From assembly GCA_937922705.1 (NCBI GenBank), contig CALAIW010000019.1, forward strand, positions 1-56,444: a stretch of DNA of 56,444 nt, in the 5' to 3' direction. A model generated the notes under the pieces. The model worked only from the letters and a program-made list of their open reading frames with translations. It was not told the origin of the DNA and searched no databases. Positions 1,199 through 12,359 of this stretch are shown piece by piece. This stretch comes from an uncultured bacterium. GTDB taxonomy: Bacteria; Atribacterota; Atribacteria; Atribacterales; Caldatribacteriaceae. The position numbers were made by a program, and so were the translations under genes. Each line of letters opens with the position of its first letter. Within the stretch, counting starts at the first letter, position 1.

Positions 1199-2182
1199 CT
1201 ACCAGCGATGGTGCACATCAGAGCGAATGTACTTTTCGTAAATCTCCCGGATTCTTTCCATAACCTCCTCTTGCAGTGGGGGTAAATCTGAAGCCTTTGC
1301 GTTCTCCTCTGCCTGACGGGGATTTTTAGCTCCTGGAATAACCGTGCTCACCTCAGGAAACATGAGAATCCACTTTAGGGCAAACTGAGCCATGGTAAAG
1401 CCTTCAGGAACAAGCGCCCTGAGCTCTTCTACTGCTTGCAAACCTTTTTCAAAATCCACTCCAGCAAAGGTCTCTCCCCGGTCAAAGGCCTGTCCGTAAC
1501 GGTTGAAGTTTCGGTGGTCGTCAGGAGGAAAAACAGTGTCTTTGGTCATCTTTCCGGTAAGGAGACCGCTTGCAAGGGGTACTCTCGCAATGATAGCTAC
1601 TCTCTTCTCCCGGCAGCGAGAAAAAAGGAGTTCTGCTGGCCTCTGCCGAAAAATGTTATAGATAATCTGCACGCTGCGTACTCCAGGATACTCTATAGCT
1701 TTCAACCCCTCCTCTACTTTTTCGACACTGACGCCATAGTAGCGAATTTTTCCCTGAGCAACGAGTTTATCAAGTGCCTCGAAAACTTCGGGACGATAGT
1801 AGACTTCAGTTGGTGGGCAGTGGAGCTGCAAAAGGTCTACGGTGTCAACCTGGAGATTCCTGAGGCTCCGCTCCACAAACCGTGTGAGGTTTTCTTCGGT
1901 ATACCCATCAGCAGTATGAGGAGAGAGACGCCGTCCGGCCTTGGTGGCCACAAAGACCCGTTCTTTACGTTCTTTGAGGACCCGGGCAATGAGCTGTTCA
2001 CTCCTTCCATCTCCGTACACATCGGCAGTATCGATGAAATTCATGCCACAGTCGATGGCTCTATGTAGGGCTGCAATAGCGTCTTCTTCCTCGACTTTGC
2101 CCCAGCCTCCCCCTATGGCCCAGGCTCCGAAACCCACCTCGCTCACCGCCCAACCGCATTTCCCAAAAACCCGGTAGTTCAT
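1199..2182 (-). CDS. Aldo/keto reductase
   Basis: A 327-residue NAD(P)H-dependent oxidoreductase of the aldo/keto reductase superfamily with a complete TIM barrel. The catalytic tetrad is visible: D51 and Y56 in FIDTADVYGDGRSE, K81 in ATKAG and H121 in LLQLHCPP. The C-terminal nucleotide-binding segment STVIPGAKNPRQAEEN is intact. Length is normal for the YajO/Tas/IolS type. It is preceded by GGGGGTAGTACC and by an inverted repeat at 2209-2231, and follows the UroD/mannosidase genes on the same strand, so it may process a sugar-derived aldehyde or ketone; the substrate cannot be read from sequence. Confidence 0.93.
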   Translation of the reverse strand: MNYRVFGKCGWAVSEVGFGAWAIGGGWGKVEEEDAIAALHRAIDCGMNFIDTADVYGDGRSEQLIARVLKERKERVFVATKAGRRLSPHTADGYTEENLTRFVERSLRNLQVDTVDLLQLHCPPTEVYYRPEVFEALDKLVAQGKIRYYGVSVEKVEEGLKAIEYPGVRSVQIIYNIFRQRPAELLFSRCREKRVAIIARVPLASGLLTGKMTKDTVFPPDDHRNFNRYGQAFDRGETFAGVDFEKGLQAVEELRALVPEGFTMAQFALKWILMFPEVSTVIPGAKNPRQAEENAKASDLPPLQEEVMERIREIYEKYIRSDVHHRW

Positions 2183-2285: not shown

Positions 2286-3401
2286 CTAATACACGCACTC
2301 CCGGGCCGCTTCAACGTATACCCGCAAGTTTTCCAGAGGAGTATCGAAGAAATGATCAGCACAGGAGAGGATATACCCTCCTTCATACCCCACTTTTTCA
2401 AAAAGCGTTTGAACCATGGTGCGTATCTCCTCCTCGGTACCATGGGTCAGCACGTTAATCTGATCCATACCGCCAATAAGGGCCAAGCGACGTCCCACCT
2501 TTTCCTTAAACTCCCAGGGTTCCTGATTACCCCCAATGCTTGTAGGGGCTAAGGTTTCTGAGGCATCCGTTCCATTAGCTATGATATACTCCTCAATGCC
2601 TTTTGTCCCACCACAGGTATGGTAAGTAACTCTAAAACCTAGATCGTGTAGGGCTTGGTGGAGCTTGCAATCGTAAGGGAGGCAGAACTCCTCATGGATT
2701 TTAGGAGAAATCAAGGTAGAGGAAGCCGCTCCTCCTCCGGTTTCCACAAGGTCAAATGTTGCTCCTTTCATAGTTTCGATAAACTGGAGTTTCTTTTCAA
2801 GGAGTATGGAAAGCAACTCATGTACCCAATCTGGTTTATCAAAGGTTCGCAAAATGAGCTCCCCGATGTCCATAAGGCATGCTGCGTGTTGCCAGCATCC
2901 TGCCTGATCCCCCCAGATAAGCCCTCTTAGAATTCCTCGATCCCCAATACGGTCGTAAAGTCTATTGACCGCCTTCACATCAAGCTTTTGCACTGGCATG
3001 TACTTTTTAATAAGTGTGATATCCTCGTCGTGTTTAATAAGGTACTCTGTAACCCAAACCGTCTTGCGATTGCCTCCGGTTCTATAGGTCAGGACCCCCT
3101 CAGGCGTGGTAATGGTGTGCTTGTATTCCCAATCATCCGGATCATTTCTCAACACCTCTACCTCGTGCCGCCAAGTAGGTGTTGAGAATCTCGAGAAATC
3201 AGGATTTGCGAGCCAAAACTGTTCCATTTCCTGCACGTACTGAACCGCTGCATCCATACCGAAGTACTCAAAGGCTTCAAGCTCATCCATACCCCCAAGG
3301 TACGTCTCAAGATGGTACCTTTGCCACTGATGCACAGTTACTGGAAGACGATCGGGAATGCCCCGTTCAAGGGCAATAATCATTCGTTCTTTTGAGGTCA
3401 T
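2286..3401 (-). CDS. UroD-fold methyltransferase-like protein 1 (full H-x-C...C motif)
   Basis: A 371-residue protein of the uroporphyrinogen decarboxylase superfamily. It opens with the family start MTSKERMIIALERGIPDRLP and ends with DTPLENLRVYVEAARE. It carries H261-x-C263 (YHTCGG) and C347 (YILSCADH), the zinc-ligand pattern of the MtaA/MtbA/CmuA cobalamin-dependent methyltransferase branch, not of the heme enzyme HemE. It overlaps the mannosidase gene upstream by 4 bases, so the two are translationally coupled. No corrinoid-protein gene is in the window. A role in demethylation or another C1 step on a sugar or glycoside is possible but is inference; the family assignment is firm. Confidence 0.85.
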   Translation of the reverse strand: MTSKERMIIALERGIPDRLPVTVHQWQRYHLETYLGGMDELEAFEYFGMDAAVQYVQEMEQFWLANPDFSRFSTPTWRHEVEVLRNDPDDWEYKHTITTPEGVLTYRTGGNRKTVWVTEYLIKHDEDITLIKKYMPVQKLDVKAVNRLYDRIGDRGILRGLIWGDQAGCWQHAACLMDIGELILRTFDKPDWVHELLSILLEKKLQFIETMKGATFDLVETGGGAASSTLISPKIHEEFCLPYDCKLHQALHDLGFRVTYHTCGGTKGIEEYIIANGTDASETLAPTSIGGNQEPWEFKEKVGRRLALIGGMDQINVLTHGTEEEIRTMVQTLFEKVGYEGGYILSCADHFFDTPLENLRVYVEAARECVY

Positions 3402-6034
3402 GAAGTCTCTTGCCCCCTCTTCTGAAAGACAACGCCCCAGGTAGCAATTGCAAAAGGACCCATGGTTCCCTCTACAGCATTACCTTGCACCGGAACAAGT
3501 TCTTCTTCCTCTTCAACAAGAGAAAGTCGCTGCAGTGCGAGCACGGGAAGGGTAAACGAAAGGCGGAAAGGCTGAGAAGAAGCCGTGGGATTATACATCC
3601 GCAAAACAACGCCGTCACCATTTTCCTTCAGCTTCAAGGCGCTTAAAACGAGTACTGGATTATCGCACTCAAAAAATGACCAACCATCGAGAAAATAATC
3701 TTTGTCCCCTTTGACCTGCAAAAGAAGGGGTGGTCGACTGAAAAGACAAGCTTCCCGATTCAGGAAAAGGTGCAAGGCAGGGCCTTTGGAGAAAAGAAGT
3801 GCCAAACGAAAACGATGGTTCCCCAAACACTGGGCTCCCTCCGTAGGCAGGCTCCAGCCGGCATCCCCCCTTCGAGTTAAAAGGTCATCTCGCGAGAGCC
3901 ATCCCACCGCACGCAAAAGGGTAATAGCTATCCTTGTCCCCTTTCCTTTTGGAGACACTTCATATTCCCGAAGCCCCTGATTGAAGAGGGCAAAGACCTT
4001 TTCTCCATCTTCCAGGAAAACAAAATCGTTTTGAGGGTGGGCCTTGCCGTCATTTTCCCGTCGCAGAATGGCAAAGTGGGCATCGGCGAAGTGGTGCTCT
4101 GTTTCAAAAGGCACGTCAAAAAGGATTCGTAACCGGTGGTCTTTGGCAGTGTTTTCCAAACCGATATCAAGGTCAATCCTCCGCAACCCTTTATAGAGAC
4201 GAATATCAACAGTGACAGGAATCACAACCCTTTCCCTACTTCGCCCTTTACGGTCCGGGGTAAGGGAACGAGGAATCGCCATATCGTAACGGAGACGAAT
4301 ACTCCGGACGTATTCGTCCTTCCTCACCCATGAAATGGTAGGAGGAAAGTCACTACTTTGAATAATTTCATCATTTTCACAAGGAGAGTAGTCATACTCA
4401 TCGCCGGCATCAGCACCATCCTCAAAGACAAGACCTAAAACGTATTCCTGTGAGAGTTCGTGAACGAAAAGACGAAGGTACCCCGATGGTTCCACCACAA
4501 TCCGATAGAACTCGTTCTCTAAAACATTTCCTTCAGGAAAAACCGAATGGCTCTCTTTCGTAACGTTTCGAGGAACGATACGGTAGGCCCGAAAACCAAG
4601 GGGTGGGAGATTGTGCACTTGAAAGCCAAGAACACATCGCTGCGCTCTAAAAATTTGAGGAAGAGTATGGGACGGAGTAGCCATAAACGTAACCCAGTCA
4701 CTCTCAAGGATTTCAGGAATCACAGTCTCTTCTTGGCTTTGGAGTTCCAGGGCATGGTAAAGAGTGCTTTCTTGGGGCGTGTAAGAGAGAATCTTACTCG
4801 CCTCGAAGTCCACCTCCCGTATCTTCGCTTTCTGAAGGTACACTTCGCCCTCAAGATACACATCCACCGGATAGGGATAGGGGTTAAAAATGAGGAGGAT
4901 ATCTGCACCACCGTGAAAGCGCTCTTCCAGAATCCTCTCTGCCTCCTCTAGGAGCTTTTCCCCTATAGTCTCAATCTTGCGATACCGAAACATCATTTCC
5001 TCGTGTACTGCATCAATACTGCAACCACAGATAGAGTCGTGAGGAGAGTTCTGCAGAAGGAGTTTCCAAAGGTAAGTAAGGTACTCCTTAGGATACGGAC
5101 CACCTAAAAGAGAGATAACGGTATACAGAGGTTCAAGCCACTTCTCAAGAAGAGAGGAACACTGATGGTGTTTCTGTTTTAAGTACACTCTAGTTGAGAG
5201 TGTTCCTCCCAGAAGGTAGTTAAGGTCATCAGCCCTCCATTCACCCTCATAAATGAAAAGTTCTGGAGCTTCTTCCTCAATCTTCCGAAAGAGATATTGT
5301 AAATGGGAATGGAGCACAACATGTTCGGGAAGTCTCTTGCGAAGGATATCGAGTTTCTTCGAAAGCTTCGGGTCCGGTTCGACATGGTCGCTCCCGTTCA
5401 TGAGTAGCAGATGTGGAGTTGTGGCAAAGGGAGCGAGTTTCTCTATAAGCCCAAGAATTCTTCGAACGAGCTGTTCCTCATCCTCCGGTAGGTCAGTCGC
5501 CACACCATATCCAAAAGGCATGTAAAGGGTCAAAACTCTTGAGCCGTCGGGTGCTTGCCAAAAAAACTCGCTTTTGCACACCGTTCGTGGTGCTCCCCGC
5601 CAAAACGTGGCGTAGGGAATACCACTTTTTCTGAGAATTTGAGGCATCTGGGCGATGTGACCAAAAGAATCGGGGAGGTAACCAATTCTATTGTCCCCAC
5701 CAAATACCCGCATAATGTCCCTTCCCAAAAGGAGGTTCCGAATGTGGGTCTCACCACTCACCAAAAACTCATCAGTCAGGACATACCAAGGGCCAACGAA
5801 GAGTCTTCCTCCCTCGATGTATGTCCTAAGCTCGTCCCATCGAGATGGTTTCATATCCAGGTAATCTTCAAGAACTATTGTCTGGCCATCCAGTAAAAAG
5901 TACCTGTATGCTGGGTCTTCTCGAAAAATATTAAGGAGGTGGTCGATGAGCTTCACGAGACGAAAACGGAAGGCGTCAAAGGTTTCATACCACTCTCTAT
6001 CCCAGTGCGTATGGCTCACAAAGTGCAAATACAC
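3398..6034 (-). CDS. Glycoside hydrolase family 38 alpha-mannosidase
   Basis: An 878-residue cytoplasmic GH38 enzyme (no signal peptide) that cleaves alpha-mannosidic linkages with retention. The zinc site and nucleophile are visible: H10 and D12 in VSHTHWDREW, the nucleophile D122 in GYLPDSFGH and H332 in NSPHDSICG. Length matches bacterial GH38 enzymes such as MngB. I chose the GTG at 6034 because GGAGG lies 8 bases upstream of it; a GTG at 6043 overlaps that site. It is flanked on both sides by UroD-fold genes and sits downstream of a sugar importer, so it probably acts on an imported mannoside or mannosyl-glycerate-like substrate. There is no PTS, so a phosphorylated substrate as for MngB is less likely. 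Confidence 0.95.
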   Translation of the reverse strand: MYLHFVSHTHWDREWYETFDAFRFRLVKLIDHLLNIFREDPAYRYFLLDGQTIVLEDYLDMKPSRWDELRTYIEGGRLFVGPWYVLTDEFLVSGETHIRNLLLGRDIMRVFGGDNRIGYLPDSFGHIAQMPQILRKSGIPYATFWRGAPRTVCKSEFFWQAPDGSRVLTLYMPFGYGVATDLPEDEEQLVRRILGLIEKLAPFATTPHLLLMNGSDHVEPDPKLSKKLDILRKRLPEHVVLHSHLQYLFRKIEEEAPELFIYEGEWRADDLNYLLGGTLSTRVYLKQKHHQCSSLLEKWLEPLYTVISLLGGPYPKEYLTYLWKLLLQNSPHDSICGCSIDAVHEEMMFRYRKIETIGEKLLEEAERILEERFHGGADILLIFNPYPYPVDVYLEGEVYLQKAKIREVDFEASKILSYTPQESTLYHALELQSQEETVIPEILESDWVTFMATPSHTLPQIFRAQRCVLGFQVHNLPPLGFRAYRIVPRNVTKESHSVFPEGNVLENEFYRIVVEPSGYLRLFVHELSQEYVLGLVFEDGADAGDEYDYSPCENDEIIQSSDFPPTISWVRKDEYVRSIRLRYDMAIPRSLTPDRKGRSRERVVIPVTVDIRLYKGLRRIDLDIGLENTAKDHRLRILFDVPFETEHHFADAHFAILRRENDGKAHPQNDFVFLEDGEKVFALFNQGLREYEVSPKGKGTRIAITLLRAVGWLSRDDLLTRRGDAGWSLPTEGAQCLGNHRFRLALLFSKGPALHLFLNREACLFSRPPLLLQVKGDKDYFLDGWSFFECDNPVLVLSALKLKENGDGVVLRMYNPTASSQPFRLSFTLPVLALQRLSLVEEEEELVPVQGNAVEGTMGPFAIATWGVVFQKRGQETS

Positions 6035-6055
6035 CCAAAACACCTCCAGAAAGGT

Positions 6056-7174
6056 TTACCGTCTTCCTAATTCCTCACAGAGGGCAAAGTAGTAAAACAC
6101 ATTTTCTGGAGGAATAATGTGGGTGATGTGGTTTGAAACACAATAAAAATACCCAGGGCAATCTTTGCCAAAGCGCGTGCAACGTTCTACTTCCCTCCTA
6201 ATGTCCTCTTTCGTCCCCTCTGCCAATATCCTTCCATCGATGTTACCGACCATGACCTTCTCCTGCCCGTATTTTCGAACCAATGCCTCGAGGTCCGTGT
6301 AACTCTCGGCAAAAAACCCATCTGCGCCACAGGCAAGAACGTCATCAATGACACTGTCAAGCTTCCCATCAGAGATAAAAATCACCTTCTTTCCTCTCCG
6401 TTTCAAAGGCTCCCATATCATCTCGTAGTAAGGATAGAGATTCTTTCGGTACCATTCCGGATTGAAAATAGGACCTCTGGTGGTGCACAAATCGTCATGA
6501 CTTGTGAATACTTCAATATCGGTTAAGGAAAACGCCAAGGTCACCTTGAGGGAGATTTCGACGAACCCCTTCCAGATTCTCTGGAATTCCTGGGGATAGA
6601 GGTAGGCAAGTTCCGCAAAGAACTCCCATCCAAAGAGCATGAGTGGCCACATGAGAAGCGTTCGGTAATAATGACCAGGAACAAGCGCCCTTTCTCCAAC
6701 AAGATTCTGGAGATAATGGAAATCCTCGTTGAGCTTTCTGACCATTTCTTCTAGTGGGAGGTGTAAGAATCGCTGGAGAGGGTCTATGTCTTCAAATACC
6801 TCCTTCGACTCTTGCTCCAGGAATGTCGACACCGGGTCAAAGCGCAGAACATCCTCAATAGAGCGAAACCAAGAACCGTGGTCCCATTCCCAGGTTGTCC
6901 CGCCTCCCCATCGGCTCACCTTTTTACCACGCTCGTTGACAATGGTCCCGTTTTCAAGGACCTGAAACGCAGAAGGAACATCTGTACGAGGGGGAATTTC
7001 CACGTCGATGGGAAGAAGCTCTAAAGTACGCAATCGCGCTTTTTGGGGATGCAACACTGGGTCAATTCCCGTCAGCTGCAATTCAAACTCGGGATTTGCC
7101 AAGAACTCCCAGTGAGGAATACGGTCTGTAGGCTGCAGGAAAAAGGCAGCTTTAGCCCTGCTTCTACTTCCCAT
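6056..7174 (-). CDS. UroD-fold protein 2 (H-x-C motif lost)
   Basis: A 372-residue UroD-superfamily protein recognised by the PTDRIPHWEF start, the DDLCTTRGPIFNPEWYRKNLYPYYE segment and the closing PPENVFYYF helix. Where its relatives have H-x-C it reads VIFISDGKLD (S268, D269), so two expected metal ligands are missing; a Cys at 345 (YFYCVSNH) aligns with the third ligand. That suggests a different metal site or a non-enzymatic role. It overlaps the upstream gene by 11 bases with the ATG chosen (20 with a GTG 9 bases earlier; GGGGTGA fits the ATG better) and is 21 bases from the mannosidase start. Confidence 0.8.
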   Translation of the reverse strand: MGSRSRAKAAFFLQPTDRIPHWEFLANPEFELQLTGIDPVLHPQKARLRTLELLPIDVEIPPRTDVPSAFQVLENGTIVNERGKKVSRWGGGTTWEWDHGSWFRSIEDVLRFDPVSTFLEQESKEVFEDIDPLQRFLHLPLEEMVRKLNEDFHYLQNLVGERALVPGHYYRTLLMWPLMLFGWEFFAELAYLYPQEFQRIWKGFVEISLKVTLAFSLTDIEVFTSHDDLCTTRGPIFNPEWYRKNLYPYYEMIWEPLKRRGKKVIFISDGKLDSVIDDVLACGADGFFAESYTDLEALVRKYGQEKVMVGNIDGRILAEGTKEDIRREVERCTRFGKDCPGYFYCVSNHITHIIPPENVFYYFALCEELGRR

Positions 7175-8267
7175 CCTGTTCACCCCAGTGCGCGAAGATA
7201 CGGTAAATCTCCTCTAGCTCGTTCTCACCCCAAACCATATCGTGCCCAAGGAGAGAGTTCGTCGTATCAACAAGAATATAGAGACCAGTCACACCTTTGC
7301 CTCCCTCTTTGAGATGCATTAAATAGCTCAAAACACTGTCGAAAACGATGTCTTTGTTCAATCCCACATGAGGAGAGAGAATAACTCTGTTACCAAGCTT
7401 TTTTGTGACCTCCTCAAAGGGCGTTTCAGTGGCACCAAAATTTATCCCTTTGAGGTTCTCAACCTCAAGAAGCACCTCCAAGTTGTGAGAGAAATTCCCA
7501 CAAGAATGGATAAGGACTCCACCAAATTCCCTAGAAAGAATATCGATATAGGGAAGTGCAAACTCTCGATAGAGCTCCGGAGAAAGAAGCGAAAGAAGGT
7601 CTTCACTCACACAAATTCCTTCCCCCCATGGAAGGTAGTGCTGGAGATGACAGGGGATAAATTCTGTGCCTTGAGCCTCCTTCCTCTGAGCATGAACAAA
7701 CTCGATAATGAGTTCAGTGACCATCTCAAGGAGATGATGGACAGCTCGAGGGGCGTCAAAAAGCGCAAGGAAGAAACTGTTGCTTTCCCACAAAAGATAG
7801 GCAACATCAATCGGTCCTTGAAGATCGGTCATCTTTATCGGTACACTTCCTCGCGTTTCTTTTACTGCGAAGCGGGTAAAATCAAGAACAACCCCAAGAA
7901 GGCCATCCCGCACCGAGGGTTTCTTTATTTGAAAGACCTTACTAGGATCATCGAAAATAATCGGTTCACTCCAGGGGTGTCGACCCTCAGAGAAACAGAG
8001 CGGGCATCCAAAGGCTGAGGGGAAAATGCTGGTCCCAAAATCCGTACGAACAGCGGGAACATCAAAATCAAGAATGTGCTTCCGCGAAGCTATACGCTGT
8101 AGCTCTGCACAAAGGATGACCTCAAACGAAAAAGCTTTAGATCCCCACGACACAAGGTCCTGAGCCTTGGAACCGATATAGAAAACAGGACCAGGTTCCT
8201 TACGTTGCCAAAAACGTCTGACATAGTCCTTTTTTTCCTCTTCAGAGTAATGCAGTGGAAGCACCAA
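7164..8267 (-). CDS. UroD-fold protein 3 (H-x-C present, third ligand lost)
   Basis: A 367-residue protein of the UroD superfamily, most divergent at its N-terminus. It keeps H254-x-C256 in VLIHSCGNF but has no Cys in the region where the third zinc ligand is expected (YILVDTTNSLLGHD). The first gene after the two permeases, 19 bases downstream. Start is TTG at 8267 (or GTG at 8264), both served by GGAGGAG. With proteins 1 and 2 it forms a set of three paralogues within one operon, each with a different subset of the ligand motif. Exact reaction unknown. Confidence 0.78.
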   Translation of the reverse strand: MVLPLHYSEEEKKDYVRRFWQRKEPGPVFYIGSKAQDLVSWGSKAFSFEVILCAELQRIASRKHILDFDVPAVRTDFGTSIFPSAFGCPLCFSEGRHPWSEPIIFDDPSKVFQIKKPSVRDGLLGVVLDFTRFAVKETRGSVPIKMTDLQGPIDVAYLLWESNSFFLALFDAPRAVHHLLEMVTELIIEFVHAQRKEAQGTEFIPCHLQHYLPWGEGICVSEDLLSLLSPELYREFALPYIDILSREFGGVLIHSCGNFSHNLEVLLEVENLKGINFGATETPFEEVTKKLGNRVILSPHVGLNKDIVFDSVLSYLMHLKEGGKGVTGLYILVDTTNSLLGHDMVWGENELEEIYRIFAHWGEQDGK

Positions 8268-8286: not shown

Positions 8287-9129
8287 TTATTTGATAGCCC
8301 CTCGGGTTAAACCCTCAACAATGGTCCGTTGGAAAATAATCACAAGCACAATAACAGGGATAATCATCACTACACTTAGGGCGCTCATAAGGTCCCACGG
8401 TTTCCCATAGGCCGTTGATTCCAAGGCTACTTCAGTAAGGCCAACCGTAAGGGTTTTGCTCCGAGCATCAACGGCAAAGACCAGGGGATACAGGAGTTCG
8501 TTCCAGCCGGTGATAAAGTTAATGACGAACATAGTTCCAACAGCAGGTACAATAAGAGGAAAGGCAATCCGAAAAAGAATGTGCAGAAATCCCGCACCAT
8601 CTATAGCCGCAGCCTCTTCAATCTCTGCTGGAACCTGCTTGATAAAAGAAATAAGGATCCAGATGGTAAAAGGAGTGATAAGACTCGACATCGCAATAAC
8701 CATACCTTCAATTTTGTTCAAGAGACCGACTCTCCCGTAGAGCTCATAAAGAGGAATAACAGTCGTAATTGGTGGCAGAGCAATACTCAAGAGAAAGAGG
8801 AGCAAAAGAACGTTGCTTCCTCGAAAGCGGATCCGGGCAAAGGCATAAGCAGCAAGGAAGCTCAAAAAAACAGATACAGCACTTGAGGAAAGAGCAAAAA
8901 CAAGAGAATTCCGGAGATATGCCGAAAAGGGAATATTTCCAGCCATACGCACGAAATTTTCCGCCGTGAAGTACGAAGGGAAGTACAGTGGTGGAATCGA
9001 AAAAAGCTTGTGTTTTGGCGTCACAGAGGAGATGAAAATCCAGTAAAATGGAAAGATAGTGATGAAGACGTACACACAAAAAAGCACATAGGTTGTGACT
9101 AAGTTTGTCCTTGAACCCTCAAGGTTCAT
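8287..9129 (-). CDS. Sugar ABC transporter permease, MalG-type
   Basis: A 280-residue inner-membrane permease of the CUT1 carbohydrate family with six predicted membrane helices. The EAA loop that contacts the ATPase is clear: EIEEAAAIDGAGFLHILFRI followed by AFPLIVPAV. The C-terminus ends FQRTIVEGLTRGAIK, which is typical of MalG/LacG/UgpE proteins. It lies 14 bases after the MalF-type permease and 19 bases before UroD protein 3. It forms the translocation pore with its partner. The matching ATPase is not in the window, so a shared MsmX/UgpC-type ATPase elsewhere is likely. Confidence 0.95.
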   Translation of the reverse strand: MNLEGSRTNLVTTYVLFCVYVFITIFPFYWIFISSVTPKHKLFSIPPLYFPSYFTAENFVRMAGNIPFSAYLRNSLVFALSSSAVSVFLSFLAAYAFARIRFRGSNVLLLLFLLSIALPPITTVIPLYELYGRVGLLNKIEGMVIAMSSLITPFTIWILISFIKQVPAEIEEAAAIDGAGFLHILFRIAFPLIVPAVGTMFVINFITGWNELLYPLVFAVDARSKTLTVGLTEVALESTAYGKPWDLMSALSVVMIIPVIVLVIIFQRTIVEGLTRGAIK

Positions 9130-9143
9130 AGTAAATCCACCCC

Positions 9144-10031
9144 TCAGAGAAGGATTTCAAACTTTCGCGAAATAAAGAGGACAATCGTGCCCAAAATACC
9201 CACCAGGAAAAGCAAAGCCACACTGATAGCTGAAGCATACCCAAAGTTCATATGGGAGAAGGTTTCTTGGTAAATCTTGTACGACATGATAGCTGTGGAA
9301 AATCCAGGACCACCTCCAGTCATACCGTACACGATATCGAAAGTCGCCAAGTACCATACGGTAAAAAAGAGCACTGTGGTAATGACAATTGGGGAGAGAA
9401 AAGGAATCGTAATGTACCTAAAACAATGCCAGCCAGAGGCACCATCAACCCTCGCAGCCTCATAAAGCTCCAGAGGAACACTTTGCAAGCCGGCAAGAAG
9501 AAGCATAGCCACAAAGGGAGTATTTTTCCAGACATTAGCAAGAACGATGGCCCATCGTGCTCCCCAGGGGTCCACAAGCCAGGCAAATCGCAAACCCGTA
9601 AAACGAGCAATGAGGTCGGTAATGATACCGTACTCACCGTCAAACATCCAGCGAAACCCCAGCGCTACAACAATCATTGGAATTGCCCAGGGAATGAGAT
9701 TAATAGTACGTGCGAAATACCGAAGCGCAAAGCGTTTGTTGAGTAAAAGAGCCACCAAAAGCCCCAGAGCTGTTTGAAAAGCAATAGAAACAAAAGTGAA
9801 AAAGACAGTAAACATGATGCTTTCGCGTACCACGAGATCCGCGGACATTTTCTGAAAGTTGGCCAATCCCGCATAGGTATGAGCACCAATGATTGGATTA
9901 ACCCGAAAAAAGGAGAGATAAATGGTGTACACCACTGGATAGAGCGAAGTAAATAAACGTAGGACCAAAGCGGGAAGAATAAGAACTATGGCATAATAAA
10001 TCTTCCGTCGAGATGCTTTTTGAAGATTCAC
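9144..10031 (-). CDS. Sugar ABC transporter permease, MalF-type
   Basis: A CUT1-family permease with six membrane helices and the EAA motif LYEAARVDGASGWHCFRYIT. A longer frame starts with GTG at 10097, overlapping the binding-protein stop, but its first 16 codons would be encoded by a perfect 30-bp palindrome. I prefer the GTG at 10031 (295 residues, VNLQKASRRK), which has AAAGGAG 11 bases upstream, just beyond the palindrome. That leaves a hairpin between binding-protein and permease genes, as in malE-malF. Partner of the MalG-type permease downstream. Confidence 0.9.
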   Translation of the reverse strand: MNLQKASRRKIYYAIVLILPALVLRLFTSLYPVVYTIYLSFFRVNPIIGAHTYAGLANFQKMSADLVVRESIMFTVFFTFVSIAFQTALGLLVALLLNKRFALRYFARTINLIPWAIPMIVVALGFRWMFDGEYGIITDLIARFTGLRFAWLVDPWGARWAIVLANVWKNTPFVAMLLLAGLQSVPLELYEAARVDGASGWHCFRYITIPFLSPIVITTVLFFTVWYLATFDIVYGMTGGGPGFSTAIMSYKIYQETFSHMNFGYASAISVALLFLVGILGTIVLFISRKFEILL

Positions 10032-10051
10032 AAAATTTGCCACTCCTTTCA

Positions 10052-10081
10052 CCCTGCTTGGGCGTATACGCCCAAGCAGGG
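10052..10081 (-). promoter_or_regulatory. 30-bp perfect palindrome between binding-protein and permease genes
   Basis: Arms CCCTGCTTGGGCGTA and its exact complement meet without a spacer. As RNA this folds into a very stable GC-rich hairpin 12 bases after the binding-protein stop codon. No U-run follows on the minus strand; the permease ribosome-binding site follows instead. In other sugar transporter operons such hairpins protect the upstream mRNA and lower permease expression relative to the binding protein. A protein-binding operator is the alternative. Confidence 0.7.
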
Positions 10082-10093
10082 TATTGTCTTTAC

Positions 10094-11326
10094 TCACTCT
10101 CCAAGCTCAGCCATCATCTTCTTACCTTGCTCTATTGCCTCATCTAGGGTCATCTGACCGATGAGATACGCAGACACCACATCGTCTACAATATTCTGTG
10201 CCTCAGCAACTCTGGGATGGTATGGACGAGGTGCAGGAACGTTGTTGTCACTGTACCACTTCATGTACTTTGCTAAGCCTTCATCACCCAATTCGGCCAT
10301 GACTGAGTAACGAGGATTCATAAACCAGCTGTTGGCTCGTGCCAGTTTGGGAGCGATTTCTTTCGAGAGGATGAACTGGATGAACTTCTTGGCCCCCTCT
10401 TTGTTTGGGGCAAATTTAGGAATCTCCCAGCCCCATCCCCCTGCCCAAGAAGCGTTGCTCACTGGACCGCGAGGAGGTAGGGCAATTTCAGCCTTCCCCT
10501 CGCTGTACCACTCGGTATTTCCCCGAGTAACACTATAAAAGTACGGCCACTGCCGCATCATGGCTACACGGTCATTCATGTAGTCCTCGTTAATCTGATC
10601 GTAATTTTTGTTCAGGGCTTCTTTGGGGAAAATCTGGTGTTCGTAAATCATGTCATGGATAAACTTGACCGCGGTCTTGAATCCTTCGTCGAATGCGAAA
10701 GGATTTCCCCCCGCCTGGAGTGTTAGATAGGCGACGTACACATAGAGCAGGGCAGGCTTACTCAGGGCATCTTCAACCCCGATTTTTCCTTGGGCAGTGA
10801 ATTTCTTGCCAATGTCGACCATTTCTTCCCAAGTTGCTGGAGGTAAAAGGCCCATGGCGTCGAACCAGTCTTTTCGGTAGAAGAAATATCCAAATTCAAA
10901 GCTGTGGCGTACACGATACACTTTGTCATCTAGCCAGTTCCAGACTTTCTCAGACTCTAGCATGCTTGGTGGGAAGTCCTCAAAAAAGTCTGCAGGAAGA
11001 ACATCGTTCAGTGGTTCAAGCCATCCGGCACGAGCAAAAGCCGGAGAGGCTTCGTCTGAATCGCTGACCACGTCATAGGGGCTTTGACCAGCGCGATAGT
11101 AGGTAGTGAGTTTGGTCAAGGCATCCGTTCCCGAAGAGGGCATGGACTCAAGAGTCACTTTGATTCCCGTTTGGGTCTCAAACTGCTCGATGAAAGGCTT
11201 CAGCGCTTCATGGGCGAAACTCTGGATGGCTACAGAAATTTTCTCCTCTCCAAAGGCACCAAACCCCGGGAACAAAACAACCACTAAAGCTAGACTCAAG
11301 ACCACAAACCGTAAACCCCGTCTCAT
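10094..11326 (-). CDS. Sugar ABC transporter substrate-binding protein
   Basis: A 410-residue extracellular binding protein of the CUT1 type (family 1). Residues 1-26 form a Sec signal peptide (MRRGLRFVVLSLALVVVLFP, cleavage near AFG-EEK). The mature protein shows the family core: ISVAIQSFAHEALKPFIEQFE, GIKVTLESMPSSGTDALTKL, DVVSDSDEASPAFARAGWLEPL and the GGWGWEIPKFAPNKEGAKKFIQFI segment. GGAGG precedes the ATG at good distance. It is the first structural gene after the LacI regulator and is followed by the hairpin and two permeases. Ligand cannot be read; the neighbouring GH38 enzyme points to a mannoside. Confidence 0.95.
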   Translation of the reverse strand: MRRGLRFVVLSLALVVVLFPGFGAFGEEKISVAIQSFAHEALKPFIEQFETQTGIKVTLESMPSSGTDALTKLTTYYRAGQSPYDVVSDSDEASPAFARAGWLEPLNDVLPADFFEDFPPSMLESEKVWNWLDDKVYRVRHSFEFGYFFYRKDWFDAMGLLPPATWEEMVDIGKKFTAQGKIGVEDALSKPALLYVYVAYLTLQAGGNPFAFDEGFKTAVKFIHDMIYEHQIFPKEALNKNYDQINEDYMNDRVAMMRQWPYFYSVTRGNTEWYSEGKAEIALPPRGPVSNASWAGGWGWEIPKFAPNKEGAKKFIQFILSKEIAPKLARANSWFMNPRYSVMAELGDEGLAKYMKWYSDNNVPAPRPYHPRVAEAQNIVDDVVSAYLIGQMTLDEAIEQGKKMMAELGE

Positions 11327-11387: not shown

Positions 11388-12359
11388 CTAACAGGACTCC
11401 CGAATCACCAGCTGGGGCTCCAGTATTTTTGAGCTCGGTCTCACCCCCTTGTTTATAAGATCAAAAAGCATCGTCACCGCTTCCTTACAGAGCTCATACA
11501 CTGGTTGTCGAACCGTAGTGAGTCGAGGATGGGAAAGGCGGGAGAGCCAAATGTCGTCAAATCCAATGACTGCAACATCTTGAGGAACACGTATGCCCTC
11601 CTCTTTGAGCCGCTCTATCGCTCCAAGGGCAACCAAATCATTGGCCGCAAAAATGGCGTCAAAGGGCTCTTTTTTCTCTAGAAGCACCTCAACGGCCTGG
11701 TACCCTCCCTGGAAGGAAAAGTCCCCCTCAATGACAAGGTTTGCATCCACCTCAAGACCATTCTCTTCAAGACCCTCTCGGTAACCCTGGAATCTCTCCT
11801 GGTATACGTTCACGCCCTTACGCCCTCCCAGGAAGGCAATTCTCCGTCTCCCTTTGCGGATAAGATAGGAAGTGGCTATCTTGCCTCCCTGGTAATGATT
11901 CGTAGACACAGTGGGCAACATTACTCCTTCAATATTTCTATCAAGGAGCAAGAGCGGGATAGGAAAATCAAGCATCCTTGGCTTCTTTTCACTGGTGGAA
12001 GGAACAAGGATGATACCTCTGGCCTTGTTTTGACTGAGGTAGCGAATGAAACTCTCCTCAAGGTCAGGATTATTCTCAGTATTGCACAAAAGTAGGAAAT
12101 ACCCATAGCGGAAGAGGAGGAATTCCAGAGATTTCACCAGACTCGAAAAGAAGGGGTTCTCGATGTCGGGGATAATAACCCCCACCACCTTCAACCCCTT
12201 ATTCTTCCTCCAAGTTTGCTGTTTCTCATAGCCTAAAGAGGCCATAGCCTGACGGATTCGTTCCTGTGTGGAGGGGGAAACAGAACACTTCCCACTGAGG
12301 AATTTTGAGACGGTGGAAATACTAACTCCGGCCTTCTCTGCTATGTCCTTAAGACGCAT
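11388..12359 (-). CDS. LacI-family transcriptional regulator
   Basis: A 323-residue regulator with an N-terminal LacI helix-turn-helix (MRLKDIAEKAGVSISTVSKF, then LSGKCSVSPSTQERI) and a periplasmic-binding-protein-like effector domain (VVGVIIPDIENPFFSSLVKSL; PFDAIFAANDLVALGAIERL; VAVIGFDDIWLSRLSHPRLTTV). It lies 61 bases upstream of the binding-protein gene on the same strand and is probably the local regulator of the mannoside operon. A small inverted repeat GTGTA-n2-TACAC (11363-11374) in the gap before the binding-protein gene is a possible but unproven operator half-site pair. Confidence 0.95.
   Translation of the reverse strand: MRLKDIAEKAGVSISTVSKFLSGKCSVSPSTQERIRQAMASLGYEKQQTWRKNKGLKVVGVIIPDIENPFFSSLVKSLEFLLFRYGYFLLLCNTENNPDLEESFIRYLSQNKARGIILVPSTSEKKPRMLDFPIPLLLLDRNIEGVMLPTVSTNHYQGGKIATSYLIRKGRRRIAFLGGRKGVNVYQERFQGYREGLEENGLEVDANLVIEGDFSFQGGYQAVEVLLEKKEPFDAIFAANDLVALGAIERLKEEGIRVPQDVAVIGFDDIWLSRLSHPRLTTVRQPVYELCKEAVTMLFDLINKGVRPSSKILEPQLVIRESC

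Follow-up and report, generated by a model that had tools for sequence, protein, structure and literature searches.

Three UroD-fold genes from importer-linked branches lie in an alpha-mannoside operon (LacI-CUT1-GH38) of Candidatus Caldatribacterium

Here we describe an alpha-mannoside operon of the LacI-CUT1-GH38 type in Candidatus Caldatribacterium. It contains three UroD-fold genes, U3, U2 and U1, whose products very probably use the imported sugar, or parts of it, as substrate. The three proteins are uncharacterised and belong to large importer-linked UroD branches whose chemistry is not established. The window, that is the whole stretch of 56,444 nucleotides analysed, is contig C19 of a heat-loving uncultured bacterium with a genome of 1.85 Mb (99% complete), and its closest named relative is Candidatus Caldatribacterium saccharofermentans (Atribacterota). 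All genes of the operon lie on the minus strand, in the order LacI, CUT1 solute-binding protein (SBP), permease 1, permease 2, U3, U2, GH38, U1:

11388..12359, minus strand: LacI-family regulator, first gene of the cluster (PF00356 and Peripla_BP_3; same position in G002 and G006)
10094..11326, minus strand: CUT1 solute-binding protein, glycoside/oligosaccharide type (PF01547)
10051..10082, minus strand: perfect 32-nt palindrome (hairpin) 3' of the SBP gene (counterparts in G002 and G006)
9144..10097, minus strand: CUT1 permease 1 (PF00528)
8287..9129, minus strand: CUT1 permease 2 (PF00528)
7164..8267, minus strand: U3, UroD-fold, clade A (PF01208, 3.8e-19; tree; motifs)
6056..7183, minus strand: U2, UroD-fold, clade B2 (PF01208, 4.3e-18)
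3398..6043, minus strand: GH38 alpha-mannosidase (PF01074, PF07748, PF09261, PF17677)
2286..3401, minus strand: U1, UroD-fold, clade B2 (PF01208, 3e-22)
1199..2182, minus strand: aldo/keto reductase, 103 nt downstream of U1 (PF00248)

From LacI to U1, all intergenic gaps and overlaps are at most about 60 nt; U3 and U2 overlap, U2 and GH38 are 12 nt apart, and GH38 overlaps U1 by 4 nt. An earlier reading of the sequence alone had described three UroD-superfamily genes tightly packed around a mannosidase gene, and the PF01208 matches and this spacing confirm it. The likelier start of U2 is the ATG at 7174. Permease 1 probably starts slightly downstream of 10097, and the hairpin at 10051..10082 probably lies 5' of this true start. 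Hairpins are found at the matching site in G006 and G002, and because their stems differ through paired changes, the element is probably one that stabilises or processes the mRNA. A search for a conserved LacI operator palindrome found none. Membership of the aldo/keto reductase in the operon is doubtful, and this gene is absent beside U1 in G002. In G055 (L147:15932-19501), roughly 2 kb separate a U1 homologue from an aldo/keto reductase gene, a situation comparable to that of U1 in the window.

The mannosidase is assigned to GH38 by its domain set, which comprises all four GH38 domains (Pfam), and by its catalytic motifs, which are intact (HTHWD, YLPDSFGH and NSPHDSICG at residues 11, 122 and 332). 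Its best matches among solved structures are the bacterial GH38 enzymes 3lvt (E 4e-113) and 2wyh. Identification as the mannosylglycerate hydrolase MngB was rejected, with a score of 543 bits for NF007331 against a cut-off of 1138. The nearest solved relatives of the SBP bind maltose, trehalose and sulfoquinovosyl glycerol. Import of an alpha-mannoside via the CUT1 transporter under LacI control, followed by cytosolic cleavage by GH38, is well supported.

The whole unit from LacI to U1 is present in G002, where the U1 orthologue is 88% identical, and in C. saccharofermentans it is present up to the contig end. G006, which belongs to another genus, keeps U3 and U2 and has neither U1 nor any other UroD gene after GH38. 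At least four genomes from two genera retain the UroD-GH38 arrangement, and U2 is better conserved between species than U3 (84-92% vs 68-78%). Farther away, G014, a closed single-contig genome belonging to another family in the order, has LacI, SBP, two permeases and GH38, then two other UroD genes and GH4, while a genome outside the phylum (G095) has CUT1 permeases, GH2, ROK, GH38 and a U3 relative in succession. The sequence-only reading had tied its proposal to a conserved linkage of UroD, GH38 and CUT1 genes; such linkage holds in Caldatribacteriaceae, apart from U1 after GH38 in G006, and GH38-UroD recurs in G014 and G095. A complex of the three proteins had also been suggested; as an obligate unit it is not supported, given that G006 has no UroD gene after GH38. 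When the genome collection was scanned with U2, matches came only from Caldatribacterium, one further fragment and distant Planctomycetes/Brocadiaceae. Of 20 additional GH38 loci from genomes rich in UroD genes, just 2 have a UroD gene nearby; therefore GH38 activity does not require the UroD proteins, and a general GH38-UroD functional pair was rejected. The GH38-UroD link is a trait of particular operons and is otherwise rare.

U1, U2 and U3 score 79.5, 65.9 and 69.3 bits with PF01208 (curated cut-off 23.9), and by this profile they are placed in the UroD superfamily. Since they are mutually only about 23-24% identical, they are old paralogues and not products of a recent duplication. MtaA/CmuA- and MtbA-type models match them weakly; with TIGR01463 (MtaA/CmuA) they reach 86, 27 and 40 bits against a cut-off of 235.4, and by this model they fall outside that family. 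The hemE model TIGR01464 does not match any of the three, and their PF01208 scores of 66-80 bits compare with 282-464 for HemE-level proteins of other genomes, scores by which U1-U3 are judged to be neither HemE nor porphyrinogen decarboxylases. Structure prediction gave poor models (pLDDT 51 and 61), and active-site geometry is therefore not claimed; the low-confidence model of U2 has its best fold matches in MtbA (4ay8/4ay7), and the fold searches go no further than confirming the superfamily. The host encodes about 14 UroD-fold genes in its 1.85 Mb, and no HemE-like PF01208 score was found in this genome. In the host and all genomes of the Atribacterota order searched, 4 to 19 PF01208 matches were scored per genome, with up to 43 first-look candidates, and none attained true HemE scores, the best (264 bits) being an MtaA-like protein. 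HemE-based haem synthesis appears absent from these genomes, and their UroD-fold proteins are greatly expanded.

We compared the ligand motifs across those orthologues that G002, G003/C. saccharofermentans and G006 carry. His-Thr-Cys of U1 and His-Ser-Cys of U3 are each conserved in all orthologues seen, and U3 has a Glu-Asp motif upstream; U2 has Ile-Ser-Asp in place of His-x-Cys in all orthologues seen and retains Asp-Asp and Ile-Ser-Asp-Gly. At the column of the third zinc Cys of MtaA, three alignment strategies with MtaA-like and HemE proteins placed Asp in U1 and Asn in U2, U3 has no Cys at this ligand, and HemE and most importer-linked paralogues have His. In U1 and U2 the later Cys misses the position of the MtaA zinc Cys by 2-3 residues. 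An HMMER alignment of U1 with 4ay7 pairs both Cys through a two-residue gap, which makes the later Cys arguable for U1 alone; a 39%-identical U1 homologue from another phylum (G055) reads LAPSDHFF where U1 reads LSCADHFF, so that Asp-His is kept, Cys is lost, and the later Cys of U1 is not conserved. From the ligands assigned by the sequence-only reading, the H-x-C of U1 and U3, its loss in U2 and the missing later Cys of U3 stand, whereas the later Cys credited to U1 and U2 does not. On these alignments U1-U3 do not appear to be MtaA-type zinc methyltransferases with the His-x-Cys...Cys set, and complementary ligand loss, with zinc ligands shared across three subunits, was rejected on the column register and the Cys-less G055 homologue.

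No corrinoid protein gene was found in the operon or elsewhere in the window, and the reductive activase RACE is likewise absent from the operon. The host genome encodes exactly one B12-binding_2 protein, which is MtgC-like and located on contig C26, where it clusters with FTHFS, MetV, MetF, Hdr-like genes and an MtgA-type methyl-folate:corrinoid methyltransferase (MeTr) (G000:C26; L028, L065). The MeTr is PRK07535-type (325 bits vs cut-off 259), the core of the cluster also occurs in G005, G006, G014 and G017, and a RACE/AcsV-like activase is encoded elsewhere in the host genome. Corrinoid protein, folate methyltransferase and activase are thereby all encoded here. The earlier remark that no corrinoid protein is nearby is thus true of the window and misleading genome-wide; because the three components are available in trans, an operon without a corrinoid gene is no evidence against methyl transfer, and the argument built on it falls. 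Homologues of MtaB and MTTB (MttB) are present in the host, and as there is no second B12-binding_2 protein, they must use the MtgC-like protein in trans. RACE was found in 35 of 39 UroD-rich genomes vs 19 of 62 others (101 genomes, kinship uncorrected), and outside Atribacterota in 9/9 vs 11/42 (p 5.5e-5; kinship uncorrected, genomes from different families).

Other duties of this machinery were considered. Acetyl-CoA synthase, which is absent in the host, was rejected as an explanation, and clusters of the MtgC-like/FTHFS/Hdr-like/MetV/MetF/MeTr kind occur in genomes mostly without it. Service to MttB or MtaB alone was also rejected, since both are absent in G006, G007, G009, G012, G014, G016 and G019, which keep the corrinoid protein and RACE. 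Homocysteine methyltransferase genes are present in the host; the MtgC-like cluster may serve a split methionine synthase alone, and a role as a methyl shuttle is possible.

In a tree of 56 UroD-fold proteins, of which the grouping alone was used in view of midpoint rooting and some long branches, clade A contains U3 and its relatives, clade B1 contains HemE, MtaA-like proteins, all six corrinoid-linked UroD proteins sampled and two host paralogues, and clade B2 contains U1, U2, most host paralogues and both GH38-linked G014 proteins. Corrinoid linkage is confined to B1 (0 of six sampled in A or B2), and it was therefore rejected as proof of methyl transfer. His is kept in 21 of 21 clade A proteins, mostly followed two residues on by Cys or Asp, and B2 proteins mostly have His at the MtaA zinc Cys column, as in HemE, plus an acidic pair. 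Among the host's intact A/B2 loci, 5 of 9 lie no more than 5 kb from an importer permease gene of the same strand, compared with 28 of 164 background genes (p 0.013), a rough control drawn from a few regions of the host and related genomes; when one degraded copy is included, the count is 6 of 10 (p 0.004). These importers are of several kinds (CUT1, CUT2, TRAP, SSS), and importer operons that contain both clade A and clade B2 genes occur in the window and in G020/G015/G017/G023, G031, G033, G040 and G032.

Several genomes with clade A or B2 genes offer a counter-test to methyl transfer. In G032 (94% complete) and G034 (87%) the searches detected no B12-binding_2 protein and no RACE, and one of corrinoid protein and RACE was not found in G035, G043, G046 and G055. 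This is suggestive only, because the assemblies are incomplete (81-95%) and a B1 gene of G058 lacks its partner too; the B12-binding_2 search would also miss corrinoid proteins without that domain. The G058 gene (L140:8889-10028) is the sole B1-type UroD gene of a 99% complete genome and has His-Cys-Cys, with neither a B12-binding_2 protein nor RACE found there. G040, of the same phylum, and G076, from another, do have a corrinoid gene beside UroD genes within an importer cluster. The cluster of G040 (L100:2827-18254) is co-directional and reads corrinoid protein, B1 UroD, TRAP, clade A UroD, Opp, B2 UroD, clade A UroD.

To our knowledge, all characterised members of the UroD superfamily apart from HemE are methyl or alkyl transferases, and because of this family knowledge we favour, tentatively and at somewhat less than even probability, demethylation of the imported mannoside through a shared corrinoid protein. 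U3, U2 and U1 would be TIM-barrel enzymes specific for a substituent of the imported sugar, and at least one of them would strip the mannoside or its aglycone of a methyl group bound through oxygen (or of a comparable small alkyl group). In trans, the group would pass to the cell's one corrinoid protein of MtgC type; the MtgA/MeTr-type protein would then transfer it to tetrahydrofolate, with the RACE/AcsV-type protein maintaining the corrinoid in its reduced state. A metal would be bound in U1 and U3 by His-x-Cys plus a carboxylate, and U2, without the His, would work zinc-free like CdmB or serve as a partner subunit in a putative complex. This reading is supported by the weak MtaA/CmuA- and MtbA-type matches, the closeness of the U2 model to MtbA, the tracking of UroD number by RACE and the corrinoid-UroD importer clusters of G040 and G076. 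Further support comes from the sole B12-binding_2 protein, which necessarily serves in trans, as MtgC sharing is proven in Ruegeria pomeroyi (PMC12478193), and from the exchange of one Cys ligand for a carboxylate, as reported for O-methyltransferases within the superfamily (PMC10418091). It is weakened by the confinement of corrinoid-linked UroD proteins to B1, by the A/B2 genes of G032 and G034 and of G035, G043, G046 and G055, by a corrinoid cluster that may exist for methionine synthase only, and by other GH38 operons without UroD genes. Action on a modified mannoside, as the sequence-only reading had suggested, is possible.

Judged by gene distribution and residues, a different chemistry is almost as probable, in which clades A and B2 would be corrinoid-independent, metal-dependent enzymes of carbohydrate catabolism acting jointly or sequentially, for example as lyase, isomerase, decarboxylase or hydrolase on the imported sugar. 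It is supported by importer permeases instead of corrinoid genes near A/B2 genes, by the operons that the two clades share, by the third-column His of HemE with an acidic pair in most B2 proteins, and by genomes that have such genes but yielded no corrinoid protein or RACE; however, RACE presence tracks UroD number across phyla, the MAGs concerned are incomplete, corrinoid proteins lacking the B12-binding_2 domain would escape the search, and we know of no UroD-superfamily member with such non-methyl chemistry on sugars. The broader version, an enzyme class of anaerobes for carbohydrate breakdown that works as A-B2 pairs, has grown to copy numbers in the tens in some Atribacterota and has every member adapted to a single imported sugar, is less likely.

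That U2, or more than one of the three, is a non-catalytic partner or regulator born of duplication around a single UroD-fold enzyme seems still less probable: homodimers are the rule in this superfamily, U2 has no His in all orthologues and G006 does without U1 after GH38, but U2 is better conserved than U3 and retains its acidic motifs, and the zinc-free CdmB indicates that ligand loss need not mean loss of activity (PMC13222342). Chance neighbourhood could be invoked given the host's many UroD genes and their rarity at other GH38 loci; we consider it very unlikely, as the genes are co-directional, overlapping and kept across two genera, and as similar arrangements recur in G014 and, in another phylum, in G095. 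Decarboxylation of porphyrinogens in a haem or sirohaem side path has only the fold in its favour and is highly improbable in view of the unmatched hemE model, the missing third-column residue of HemE, the lack of a HemE-level score in the genome and the sugar operon context.

With the soluble methyltransferases MtaA/MtbA/CmuA (TIGR01463; 4ay7), among the closest known systems, U1-U3 share the fold, weak matches and, in U1 and U3, His-x-Cys, but they fall far below the cut-off, have no third zinc Cys, group in separate clades and lie in an operon without a corrinoid gene. Type 1 mlp clusters (Kountz and Balskus, PMC10418091) likewise hold two or three UroD paralogues, and they carry Mlp2 and Mlp3, a corrinoid protein, RACE and His-Cys-Cys; the mannoside operon has a sugar setting and lacks corrinoid protein, RACE and this ligand set, and is not such a cluster. 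CdmB, OdmB, VdmB and MtoB are UroD-superfamily proteins for small or aromatic methyl donors, and CdmB is zinc-independent (PMC13222342; PDB 9rui), as U2 may be; unlike U1-U3 they have their own corrinoid protein, and the similarity of U2 to them is marginal (phmmer E 0.019). Bacterial GH38 and CUT1 systems (3lvt, 2wyh) share the intact catalytic motifs, importer and LacI regulator, but not the three interleaved UroD-fold genes. In Ruegeria, one small corrinoid protein, MtgC, serves several methyltransferases in trans, as proposed here, although for glycine betaine demethylation instead of sugar and with no UroD-fold enzyme (PMC12478193).

A few literature searches on UroD proteins in sugar operons or anaerobic methyl-sugar demethylation returned nothing on point. 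If the shared-corrinoid reading is true, the operon would represent an oxygen-free, anaerobic route for removing methyl groups from glycans, none of which we found described; if the corrinoid-independent one is true, a new activity would be added to a very widespread fold whose members routinely receive the annotation uroporphyrinogen decarboxylase. Under either reading, this annotation is wrong for many genes of Atribacterota and other anaerobes that adjoin sugar importers, and the subdivision into A, B1 and B2 with residue signatures makes the question of function testable.

Two further loci were noted. A UroD-fold gene beside another LacI-CUT1 operon of the host (L026:12300-13300, G000:C21) is broken by frameshifts or stops in the assembly, with only about 120 profile positions matched in one frame. 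At L020:6673-7965, a 430-aa protein with no Pfam family matches the clade A profile weakly (37 bit) and is possibly a further UroD-like branch.
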